DNA of 64,000 nt from Bryobacterales bacterium. Lineage in GTDB: Bacteria > Acidobacteriota > Terriglobia > Bryobacterales > UBA6623. This document shows positions 55,186 to 59,348 of this stretch, piece after piece. The stretch covers positions 1-64,000 of the forward strand of contig JAPOOG010000040.1 of the NCBI GenBank assembly GCA_026713545.1, read 5' to 3'. The translations under genes were made by a program, and so were the position numbers. The notes beneath the pieces are model-generated. The model was not told the DNA's origin. It searched no databases and saw nothing but the letters and a program-made list of their open reading frames with translations. Each line of letters starts with the position of its first letter. Position 1 is the first letter of the stretch.

Positions 55186-55821
55186 TCAGCGGTATTTATC
55201 GAGAGAGATCTCGAAATAGAAGAGATCGCGGCCTGTGTTGAGGTTTCGGATGCCGGAGATGTAGATGGCGGCTCCGGGAATGGGATTTGATTCCGTGCCC
55301 GTTTGGTAGTAGAAGAAGCCGCCGACGGAGCTGCGCGGCGGGACTACCGGCGCTTGAAAAGCGCGACTCGAGATCTCTGGTCTGGCAAGTGGGCCTTTCT
55401 TGACCTTGGGGCGGTTCAAGCCGGGAATACTGGGGATGTAGCGCGGGCGCTCCTTCGGACGGGTGTTGGGTTGATAGTAGACGAGGTCCTCGGCGGAAGT
55501 GGGCTCTATCCCGTCCCGATCGGATGTGATGAAGCGAACCATGAGGTCCTCGAGACCGAGCGCATCATCGCTGTTGTTGTTGATCACTACGAGGACTGGC
55601 AAGAAACCATGCTTCATAGGCTTGGCCTTCCCGAAGGTTCCCTTGATCTCTTTGTCGGTGTGAAAAGGCTTCACGGCAACAGTGACTTTGTCTTGCTTCT
55701 GGCGGGCCGGATATTTGTTGGCTGGCTTCAGCTTGAAAGTATCGTCGGCGGGGATCGCCACGGAGCTGAAAACCAGGGTCAGAACAAGGCCTGCGAGGCC
55801 GGAGAAACGGCTTCTTGTCAT
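55186..55821 (-). CDS. exported protein of unknown function
   Basis: A signal peptide (MTRSRFSGLAGLVLTLVFSS) and basic, beta-rich sequence follow: KVTVAVKPFHTDKEIKGTFG, then FLPVLVVINNNSDDALGLED and GGFFYYQTGTESNPIPGAAI, IYISGIRNLNTGRDLFYFEI. The pattern suggests an immunoglobulin-like or bacterial surface domain, with a proline-rich stretch in the middle. No family was recognised. ATG 55821 is preferred; ATG 55845 would overlap the start of the divergent waaA-lpxK gene. The two starts are only 17 bases apart, so their promoters must overlap the genes. Confidence 0.65.
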   Translation of the reverse strand: MTRSRFSGLAGLVLTLVFSSVAIPADDTFKLKPANKYPARQKQDKVTVAVKPFHTDKEIKGTFGKAKPMKHGFLPVLVVINNNSDDALGLEDLMVRFITSDRDGIEPTSAEDLVYYQPNTRPKERPRYIPSIPGLNRPKVKKGPLARPEISSRAFQAPVVPPRSSVGGFFYYQTGTESNPIPGAAIYISGIRNLNTGRDLFYFEISLDKYR

Positions 55822-55838
55822 AATGGAATGGGTTACGG

Positions 55839-58289
55839 TTGACATATTCGGCGTACAATCTGCTGGCTGCTTTGGCGGCGATTGTTGCCGTTCCCTACGA
55901 CCTGATCCGCGGCTTGAGGCGCGGTCGGCCATGGAGCAGCCTAGCACAGCGGCTGGGCTGGCTTCCTCACTCATTTCATCAGACTGCCTCCGACTCGATC
56001 TGGTTACATGCAGTGTCGGTCGGAGAGGTCGCCTCATGCGAGGGGTTGGTTCGGGGGTTGAAAGAACGGCACCCCGCTTTGCCCGTTTTTGTTTCGACCG
56101 GCACCGCTACAGGACAGTCTCTCGTACGGGATAAGCTCTCAGGCGTGACGGCAGGCGTGTTCTATGCGCCGTTAGATCTGCCGTTCGCGATCCGTCGCGT
56201 GCTGGATACCATCCGCCCACGATTGGTGGTGATTTTCGAGACGGAGATTTGGCCGAATCTCTATCGGCAGGTCAAGCAGGCAGGCGCGGGCTTGATGATT
56301 GTAAACGGTCGGGTTTCGGACCGGGCCTTTCCGAGCTATCGGCGTTTTCGGTTCCTGTTTCGGAGTGTGTTGCGTCATGTGGATCTGATCCTGGCGCAAT
56401 CTGAAAAGGACCGCGAACGGATGATTGCCATCGGGTCGGATGCCGCGCGGGTCGAGGTCGGAGGCAACCTGAAGTATGACTTCCAGGCCTCTGACGCCGT
56501 GGTGCCTGATGCCGTGCGCCGGTTCCTTGCTCAGTGTCAACCCGGACCGTTGATCATCGCGGGCAGCACTCGCGATGAAGAGGAACGGCCCGTGGTCGAG
56601 GCCTTTCGGAAGGTGGCTGAGCGCTGTGAAAAAGCGCTGCTGATCGTAGCGCCTAGGCATCCGCGCCGGTTTGAAGAGGCGGAGGCGACATTGGTCGCAT
56701 CGGGACTGCCAGTGGTGCGGCGGTCGGCGTTGAACTCGCTGTCAGCCGGAGTGGAGTTGCCGGCGGTCCTGCTGCTGGATTCACTTGGGGAGCTGTCGTC
56801 GCTGTACGCGTTGGCGGATGTGGTGTTCGTCGGTGGCTCGCTCAACGGATGGGGCGGGCACAACGTCTTGGAACCGGCGTCGTCGGGACGGCCTGTCGTG
56901 GTCGGGCCTACGATGCAGAACTTCGCCGAGATTGCTGAGACTTTGTTGTCTGAGCAGGGCATGGTCCGGATTGGAGGACAGGAAGAGCTGGGAGCGGCTT
57001 TGCTCGATCTGTTGAGGGACCGTGACGCTGCGCTGGCTATCGGCGAACGCGGACGCCGGGTGGCCGAGGCGCAGCGGGGCGCGACGGCACGCGCCATCGA
57101 TGCGGGGGTGCGGCTCTACAGCCACGCGGTTCCGGTCTCTATGCCGAGTTGGGCGCGCCGGACTTTGCTGGGCGGGCCCGCAATGGCCTGGGGCGCCGTG
57201 GCCCGACGGCGGGCTGCTTCTTTTTCAGCAGGCAACGGCTCGGCCAGGCGCTTGAAGAGTTTCACTCTTTGCGTGGGGAATCTCTCAGCGGGAGGCGAGG
57301 GCAAGACACCCGTGGTCGCCTGGCTCGTGGAACGCCTTAGCGAGAGCGGTTATCGTCCAGCGGTATTGACGCGGGGATACCGGCGTGACTCGATGCAGCC
57401 TCAGATCATCGTGGGGCCTGAGTCGGAACCCACAGCCGAACAGATTGGAGATGAGGCTTATCTGTTGCGACGCAGGTTTCAGGATTTGGAGATTACGGTT
57501 CCAATGGGAGTGGGTGCGGATCGGTTTCAAATCGGCACGAAGTTGGAAGCCCGGTTTCCGATCGACGTGATCGTGATGGACGACGGATACCAGCATTTCG
57601 CCTTGGAGCGGGATTTCGATTTGCTCGTAGTTGATGCAAGCCGGCCCTTTGGCGGCGGGCGGATGTTGCCCCTCGGGCTTTTACGCGAGCCGATTTCGGG
57701 TGCATCTCGAGCTCGAGCGATCTTGTTGACGAAGACGCAGCCCGAAGTCCGATACAACGGAATCGAATCGGTGCTGCGGCGTGCAAACCCGGGGGCGCCG
57801 ATCTTTCATGCTCAGACGCGTGCGGCGGCGATTGTTGACGCGATGTCGGCGGCAGAGAAACCGCTTGACAGTTTGGTGGGCGAGAGATGCGTCGGATTCT
57901 GCGGACTGGGAAGCCCGGATTCGTTTTGGCGCACTATCGAGGCAATGGGGATTCATCCGGTTGAGCGTTTGGCGTTTCCAGATCACCATCGGTACTCCGC
58001 GCGCGACATCGACAAGATCGCGGAGATGGCGCGACGGGCGGGCGCCGACGTGTTGTTGACGACGGAGAAAGATTTCGCGAACCTGCAGTCGGCGCTGGAC
58101 TTGCCTCAAAAGAGCGGGCCTGCGCGGGTTTGCGCGGCTCTCGGTCCGTTGCGCTTGTTCTGTCTTCGCGTTGAGCAAGATGTGGAGCCCGGCTTGTTGG
58201 AGTTCATCTTGTCGGCGCTGCCGAGTTCCCAAATCCGCTCGAACCAGACATGGGGGCCTCCGGAGGTAGCGTCCTCAAGGGAGTCGTGA
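55839..58289 (+). CDS. waaA-lpxK: fused Kdo transferase (WaaA) and lipid A 4'-kinase (LpxK)
   Basis: One 816-residue frame carries two lipid A enzymes. Residues 1 to about 430 are WaaA (KdtA): an N-terminal membrane anchor, WLHAVSVGEVASCEGLVRGL, and DVVFVGGSLNGWGGHNVLEP near 330, the nucleotide-sugar motif. From about 440 on it is LpxK: LCVGNLSAGGEGKTPVVAWL near 479-497 is the Walker A site, followed by VIVMDDGYQHFALERDFDLL and VVDASRPFGGGRMLPLGLLR. LpxK adds the 4' phosphate to lipid A and WaaA adds Kdo next, so the two steps are joined in one protein. The start is TTG 55839, the only option since a TAA lies four codons upstream. Followed by waaF after 18 bases. Confidence 0.9.
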   Translation: MTYSAYNLLAALAAIVAVPYDLIRGLRRGRPWSSLAQRLGWLPHSFHQTASDSIWLHAVSVGEVASCEGLVRGLKERHPALPVFVSTGTATGQSLVRDKLSGVTAGVFYAPLDLPFAIRRVLDTIRPRLVVIFETEIWPNLYRQVKQAGAGLMIVNGRVSDRAFPSYRRFRFLFRSVLRHVDLILAQSEKDRERMIAIGSDAARVEVGGNLKYDFQASDAVVPDAVRRFLAQCQPGPLIIAGSTRDEEERPVVEAFRKVAERCEKALLIVAPRHPRRFEEAEATLVASGLPVVRRSALNSLSAGVELPAVLLLDSLGELSSLYALADVVFVGGSLNGWGGHNVLEPASSGRPVVVGPTMQNFAEIAETLLSEQGMVRIGGQEELGAALLDLLRDRDAALAIGERGRRVAEAQRGATARAIDAGVRLYSHAVPVSMPSWARRTLLGGPAMAWGAVARRRAASFSAGNGSARRLKSFTLCVGNLSAGGEGKTPVVAWLVERLSESGYRPAVLTRGYRRDSMQPQIIVGPESEPTAEQIGDEAYLLRRRFQDLEITVPMGVGADRFQIGTKLEARFPIDVIVMDDGYQHFALERDFDLLVVDASRPFGGGRMLPLGLLREPISGASRARAILLTKTQPEVRYNGIESVLRRANPGAPIFHAQTRAAAIVDAMSAAEKPLDSLVGERCVGFCGLGSPDSFWRTIEAMGIHPVERLAFPDHHRYSARDIDKIAEMARRAGADVLLTTEKDFANLQSALDLPQKSGPARVCAALGPLRLFCLRVEQDVEPGLLEFILSALPSSQIRSNQTWGPPEVASSRES

Positions 58290-58307: not shown

Positions 58308-59348
58308 ATGAAGCTTCTTGTTCGGGCCACGAACTGGTTGGGCGATGCGGTGATGTCGCTGCCTGCGCTACGAGAAATCCGGCGAGCACACCCCGCTTGG
58401 GAGATCGTGTTGCTGGCGCGGCCTTGGGCGGAGGATCTTTACGGCCGCGAGGGTGTGTGCGACCGGACGATTCCCTACCAGCACACGGGGCGGCATCGAG
58501 GGGCGTTGGGAAGGTGGAGGTTGTCGCGTGAGTTACGCGCGGAGAGGTTCGACCGTGTCATTCTGCTGCCGAACTCTTTCGATTCGGCGCTCGTGCCCTG
58601 GCTGGCCGGCGTACGGGAACGAATTGGCTATGCGCGAGACGGCCGCAGTCTGATGCTGACAAACGCAGTTCGACAACCGCTCGCTGGGGAGATCCCGCCG
58701 CACCAGCGCTACTATTACCTGGAAATGCTGCGCCGTGCCGGATTGCTTGCAGATATGCCTGAATGCCGGGAAATACGGCTGGCGTGCGCCGAAGAGGCCG
58801 CTGTGGCAGGACGGGAGTTCTGGTCGGCACGGGGCGAGAACGGAACGCGATGGATCGGAGTAAGCCCGGGGGCGGCAAACAGCGTCGCAAAGCAGTGGCC
58901 GCCGGAGCGGTTCGCCGAGGCGGCTTCCCGGCTGGCTCGCGAGATGGGCGCGAAAGTGGTGATCTTCGGATCCGGCGCGGACACGGAAAGCGGGCGTTCG
59001 ATCGCCGAGCGAACCGCCCTGCCGGTATACAACCTGGTGAATCAGACGACGCTGCGCCGGTTCATTGACTTGACGGCCTGTTGCGAAGTGTTCCTGACGA
59101 ACGACTCGGGGGGGATGCACGTGGCGGCGGCGCTGGGCGTGCCCACGGTAGTGATCTTCGGTCCGACGGATGAGGCTGCTACGGGACCGGCGCATTCCTG
59201 CGCACGAGTAGTGCGCGAACCGGTGGATTGCAGTCCGTGCCTGCTGAAGACCTGTCCGATTGACCATCGCTGCATGACACGCGTGACGCCGGATCGTGTG
59301 GCGGCGGAAGCGTTGCAGCTCGTCCGGAACAAGAATGCAGCCCTGTAG
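58308..59348 (+). CDS. waaF: ADP-heptose:LPS heptosyltransferase (WaaF-like)
   Basis: The GT9 glycosyltransferase of 346 residues begins MKLLVRATNWLGDAVMSLPA, the acceptor-side loop of heptosyltransferases, and has WIGVSPGAANSVAKQWPPER and the donor-side FLTNDSGGMHVAAALGVPTV, then VIFGPTDEAATGP. It adds heptose to the inner core of LPS in the cytoplasm. The gene follows waaA-lpxK by 18 bases and precedes the MBL hydrolase by 37, so these form an envelope operon. The C-terminal CSPCLLKTCPIDHRCM cysteines are typical of WaaF. ATG 58308 is unambiguous. Confidence 0.94.
   Translation: MKLLVRATNWLGDAVMSLPALREIRRAHPAWEIVLLARPWAEDLYGREGVCDRTIPYQHTGRHRGALGRWRLSRELRAERFDRVILLPNSFDSALVPWLAGVRERIGYARDGRSLMLTNAVRQPLAGEIPPHQRYYYLEMLRRAGLLADMPECREIRLACAEEAAVAGREFWSARGENGTRWIGVSPGAANSVAKQWPPERFAEAASRLAREMGAKVVIFGSGADTESGRSIAERTALPVYNLVNQTTLRRFIDLTACCEVFLTNDSGGMHVAAALGVPTVVIFGPTDEAATGPAHSCARVVREPVDCSPCLLKTCPIDHRCMTRVTPDRVAAEALQLVRNKNAAL

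Follow-up and report, generated by a model that had tools for sequence, protein, structure and literature searches.

Known enzymes and gene arrangements

WaaA (KdtA), the Kdo transferase, and LpxK, the tetraacyldisaccharide (lipid A) 4'-kinase, help to make the membrane anchor of bacterial lipopolysaccharide; both families are located on the cytoplasmic side of the inner membrane. Structures of Aquifex representatives serve for comparison, i.e. WaaA of Aquifex aeolicus (structures 2xci and 2xcu) and Aquifex LpxK (4ehx, 4ehy and 4lkv). Mutational evidence covers G30, E31, E98, K162 and R212 of Aquifex WaaA as well as K51, T52, R72, D99, E100, D138, D139, H143, R171 and H261 of Aquifex LpxK, whose activity also depends on its N-terminal helix (PMC6286764). 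LpxK rejects substrates that already carry Kdo, and WaaA of E. coli performs poorly when the 4'-phosphate added by LpxK is missing (PMC6286764).

At the gene level, the sections of Opiyo et al. 2010 (PMC3087551) used here describe waaA-lpxK as a frequent gene cluster that encodes two consecutive steps; the two genes are separate there, and a fusion between them is not mentioned in these sections. The same sections list an lpxC-fabZ fusion known in Bacteroidetes, Chlorobi and Verrucomicrobia. It likewise joins genes that lie side by side in the lipid A region, but it involves other enzymes at an early branch point, whereas WaaA-LpxK would unite two consecutive late steps. We found no prior description of a WaaA-LpxK fusion in the open-access literature; automatic domain-architecture pages may already include the combination.

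The gene presented here, from a member of the Bryobacterales (Acidobacteriota), is made solely of well-known parts. Its N-terminal half shares the full-length fold and the CMP-Kdo-binding residues with Aquifex WaaA, including the catalytic glutamate (E63 in the fusion, E31 in Aquifex); it differs in bearing an entire LpxK at the C-terminus and in scoring below the PRK05749 subgroup cut-offs. The C-terminal half has the P-loop, the Walker B motif and the catalytic Asp-His pair in common with Aquifex LpxK, together with the lipid-binding Arg and His residues and the N-terminal membrane helix. Unlike LpxK, however, this kinase half has no free N-terminus, and its membrane helix comes straight after WaaA. 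Judged from sequence, the product is very probably a real bifunctional, membrane-bound and cytoplasm-facing lipid A enzyme with a single origin in the Bryobacterales, both of whose activities are selected for.

Structure and identity of the fused gene

The window analyzed is the whole stretch of 64,000 nucleotides at the start of contig JAPOOG010000040.1 (forward strand). The fused waaA-lpxK gene, delimited by its open reading frame and by profile matches, lies at positions 55839..58289 on the forward strand and comprises 816 codons plus the stop codon. It begins with TTG, the sole start codon that follows the upstream stop, and this TTG is preserved in the two nearest kin. Tracing of the reading frame revealed no internal stop across all 816 codons. 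The Kdo-transferase N-terminal domain (Pfam: PF04413) matches residues 34-214 with 200.6 bits (cut-off 23.9), and the LpxK domain (Pfam: PF02606) matches residues 448-752 with 265.8 bits (cut-off 27); the NCBIfam model TIGR00682 (lpxK) also passes its cut-off, with 191.2 vs 91.95 bits. The PRK05749 models for WaaA yield near full-length matches with E-values down to 5e-103, the best of which scores 344.8 bits against a subgroup cut-off of 438; because these NCBIfam models describe narrow subgroups, a score below the cut-off is still compatible with the WaaA identity. When the fusion was compared with the sequences of solved structures, the sole relatives were Aquifex LpxK, Aquifex WaaA and the C-terminal domain of Acinetobacter WaaA. 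The preliminary description, which read this locus as WaaA and LpxK joined in a single 816-residue frame, is thus borne out by two Pfam domains above their cut-offs in one stop-free frame.

The host genome (5.6 Mb in 170 contigs, 99.2% complete) contains one PF02606 match and one PF04413 match, both inside the fused frame. A profile search of this whole 99.2%-complete genome found no second copy of waaA or lpxK, which settles the question, raised at the outset, of separate genes elsewhere. LpxB, which makes the substrate of LpxK, and KdsB, which makes CMP-Kdo, are encoded elsewhere in the host genome.

Heptosyltransferase II catalyzes a later inner-core step. A gene for an ADP-heptose:LPS heptosyltransferase II (waaF-like; 58308..59348, forward strand; TIGR02195 with 213.2 bits vs a cut-off of 134.6) starts 18 bp downstream of the fused gene. 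On the other side, a divergent gene (55186..55836, reverse strand) encodes a secreted-looking protein of about 200 amino acids without a Pfam family. Proteins that resemble it by eye occupy the same position in two distant members of the order (L053:4355-4999 and L060:4391-4999, both on the reverse strand).

The two halves and their junction

The WaaA half spans residues 1-425 (55839..57113, forward strand) and consists of an N-terminal helix (residues 2-28), the PF04413 domain and the CMP-Kdo-binding half. Alignment to Aquifex WaaA maps the catalytic-site residues to G62, E63, E134, W138, K212, R273, N342 and E345, where G62, E63, E134, K212 and R273 correspond to the Aquifex residues G30, E31, E98, K162 and R212. 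All of these are invariant or nearly so in an alignment of 41 fused proteins. According to the alignment of the fused set and the predicted model, a junction linker follows (residues 426-437; 57114..57149, forward strand), and then the membrane-associating N-terminal helix of LpxK (residues 438-464; 57150..57230, forward strand) with the invariant W451. The kinase half (57231..58289, forward strand) carries the P-loop GGEGKTP, the Walker B motif and the catalytic and lipid-binding residues. Its key positions by alignment to Aquifex LpxK are K489 and T490 (P-loop), R512, D538/E539, R562, D581/D582 (Walker B), H586, R616 and H716, which likewise vary little or not at all among the fused proteins; the pairs K489/T490, D581/D582 and D538/E539 and the residue H716 are the equivalents of the P-loop, Walker B, D99-E100 and H261 of Aquifex.

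A structure model of the fusion, built with 10 sequences and of medium confidence (pLDDT 78, pTM 0.71), predicts that a connector of about 12 residues links a WaaA fold to an LpxK fold. In fold comparisons of this model, the WaaA half matches 2xci_A (Z 22.6 over 354 residues, rmsd 5.4) and 4bfc (Z 23.8 over 188 residues, rmsd 2.3), and the LpxK half matches 4ehy with a Z of 28.6, the membrane helix included. Residue 1 of 4ehx aligns at model residue 439, and the amphipathic N-terminal membrane helix of LpxK is retained in the predicted structure. Against a relative about 67% identical, dN/dS is about 0.16 for the WaaA half and about 0.14 for the LpxK half, both values being rough because dS is near saturation. 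At the sequence level, the two halves are under similar purifying selection.

Distribution within the Bryobacterales

Our survey of the order covers 61 genomes, i.e. the host and relatives from its own family (f1) and from two further families (f2 and f81). Both halves were located by tblastn and the open frame between them was traced. LpxK is present in 59 of the genomes; the remaining two have a completeness of just 74% and 64%. WaaA and LpxK lie in a single unbroken frame in 58 of the lpxK-bearing genomes, and the one exception (G336) is truncated within LpxK by the end of its contig. Among named records, the nearest comes from a Bryobacterales MAG, with a protein that is 92% identical. In a maximum-likelihood tree of both halves combined, the 39 Bryobacterales rows form one clade with an SH-aLRT support of 100. 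One record in this clade, CALQCC020000006.1, is a MAG titled Bordetella parapertussis; it bears the Bryobacterales fusion, groups inside the order, and is evidently mislabelled.

These data bear on the suspicion that the fusion is an artefact of sequencing, assembly or frameshift, or a pseudogene with one dead half. The source is a draft assembly in 170 contigs, which would leave room for such an error, but the identical unbroken fusion recurs in 57 further genomes of the order, and the genome has no other copy of either gene. Intact catalytic residues and purifying selection on both halves argue against a pseudogene in particular. Nearly all lpxK-bearing genomes are fused and the sampled fusions group together in a single clade, which excludes a frameshift or an error of assembly, including the hidden frameshift against which the preliminary description had cautioned; for the artefact and pseudogene readings as a whole, we see virtually no chance.

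Acidobacteriota outside the order

The survey for further fusions extended to two phyla, Acidobacteriota and Pseudomonadota. In family f3, from another order of the same class, and in nearly all other Acidobacteriota that were checked, waaA and lpxK are separate genes that mostly lie next to each other, in the order seen in the fusion. We compiled 62 unfused loci, which include a few repeat views of one genome: in 49, the two genes are in different frames and usually close or overlapping, and in 11 they share a frame with one stop between them. Long LpxK frames from families f18, f24, f41, f56 and f65 were rejected as fusions, as WaaA lies in another frame and the length reflects open frames in high-GC DNA. 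This check covered the Acidobacteriota matches listed (about half), f34 and f6 excepted.

A second WaaA-LpxK fusion was found in family f75 (genome G243, L096:1172-3649), with 826 amino acids and both Pfam domains above their cut-offs. In the maximum-likelihood tree of both halves, it groups among unfused families. Because it stands apart from the Bryobacterales clade, the topology points to at least two origins (or changes), the second of which is drawn from one draft genome.

The likeliest history within the Bryobacterales is a single fusion event in the common ancestor, when adjacent waaA and lpxK genes lost the stop or the overlap between them; both activities have been maintained by selection since then.

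One polypeptide or two

A fused gene could still give rise to two proteins if ribosomes initiated internally at the former lpxK start or if a protease cleaved the product. The host gene does have ATG codons in the junction region, at residues 435 and 449, and in the separate f75 fusion an ATG preceded by a Shine-Dalgarno-like stretch, possibly a relic, lies close to where lpxK formerly began, as would be expected by inference if that fusion were younger. However, at the position of ATG 435, the one nearest the former start, the 92%-identical kin has ATT and the next kin GTT. Among 40 fused genes whose junctions were scanned, just 16 have a junction ATG, and a start codon combined with a Shine-Dalgarno-like stretch occurs in 11, at varying positions; no internal lpxK start codon is conserved across this set. 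We consider production of two proteins very unlikely.

Proposed function as a bifunctional enzyme

From the established biochemistry of WaaA and LpxK, we infer the reactions of both halves. The C-terminal half would use ATP to phosphorylate the 4'-hydroxyl of tetraacyldisaccharide-1-phosphate, yielding lipid IVA, and the N-terminal half would next transfer Kdo from CMP-Kdo onto lipid IVA. The view that LpxK and WaaA perform consecutive steps of the pathway, with which the locus had first been interpreted, is upheld. Because LpxK refuses Kdo-bearing substrates and the E. coli WaaA is poorly active when the 4'-phosphate is missing, the C-terminal half should precede the N-terminal one. The order of the domains in the fusion, with WaaA first, is the opposite of this reaction order.

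The preliminary description had proposed substrate channelling, according to which the kinase half passes lipid IVA to the Kdo-transferase half, bypassing the membrane pool; this would be an addition to the bifunctional reading rather than an alternative to it. Several observations are in line with channelling: the two steps are consecutive and both take place on the cytoplasmic side of the inner membrane, the predicted folds are separated by a linker of only about 12 residues, the fusion is retained throughout an order, and E. coli WaaA is poorly active without the phosphate that LpxK adds (PMC6286764). On the other hand, the substrates are membrane lipids that are free to diffuse in two dimensions. 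Furthermore, unfused relatives already possess the gene pair in adjacent and co-oriented form, so that the fusion can be explained without any benefit from channelling. We regard channelling as doubtful.

The loss of a stop between abutting or overlapping genes could equally have been tolerated and then locked in, with the domains active independently of each other. The prevalent gene order in the phylum agrees with such a neutral event: most members have waaA and lpxK as neighbours in the same order, in another frame in 49 of the 62 unfused loci and one stop apart in the same frame in 11. So does the retention of the full LpxK N-terminal helix, and the separate f75 fusion indicates that the event is possible more than once. 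Against neutrality, no re-splitting is seen among the 58 genomes, which may hint at a benefit, though re-splitting is rare anyway. We give neutral fusion an even chance. Because waaA and lpxK lie side by side in most members of the phylum, fusion in place (with equal stoichiometry) or neutral fixation fits the sequence data as well as channelling does. A hand-over of lipid IVA is possible, closeness being the evidence that speaks for it, and neutral fusion is at least as likely. If the bifunctional enzyme does confer an advantage, the likeliest benefits would be that both enzymes are made in equal amounts and stay close together on the membrane.

A more far-reaching proposal would combine all of these elements, i.e. 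an obligate and order-defining bifunctional coupling of 4'-phosphorylation and Kdo transfer, undescribed so far, which arose two or more times within Acidobacteriota and possibly hands over lipid IVA. As a whole, we put it forward tentatively and think it rather unlikely.

The fusion provides a natural test of whether tethering consecutive membrane-lipid enzymes alters flux, in a phylum whose LPS has received little study, and it may also serve as a marker for the order Bryobacterales. Surveys that count genes should be read with caution, as they may score waaA or lpxK as 'missing' when both share one frame.

Other arrangements of lpxK

In Acidobacteriota family f42, most sampled members (e.g. 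G066, G158, G166, G174, G197 and G204) have no match to either LpxK or WaaA, despite a genome completeness of 90-96%. This suggests that the family lost the LpxK/WaaA part of lipid A synthesis.

For Pseudomonadota, 299 genomes were searched, and no WaaA-LpxK fusion was present among the best ~150 matches listed. Long LpxK frames in G507, G447 and G383 proved to be merely out-of-frame open reading in GC-rich DNA. The candidate in G403 was rejected as a WaaA-LpxK fusion as well; it is a real fusion, but the partner is the ABC transporter MsbA, joined in frame to LpxK in a protein of 964 amino acids (L122:566-3457). Two further genomes of the same order have MsbA and LpxK unfused, and the MsbA-LpxK fusion occurs again in another member, G662 (L131), with a length of at least 820 amino acids.
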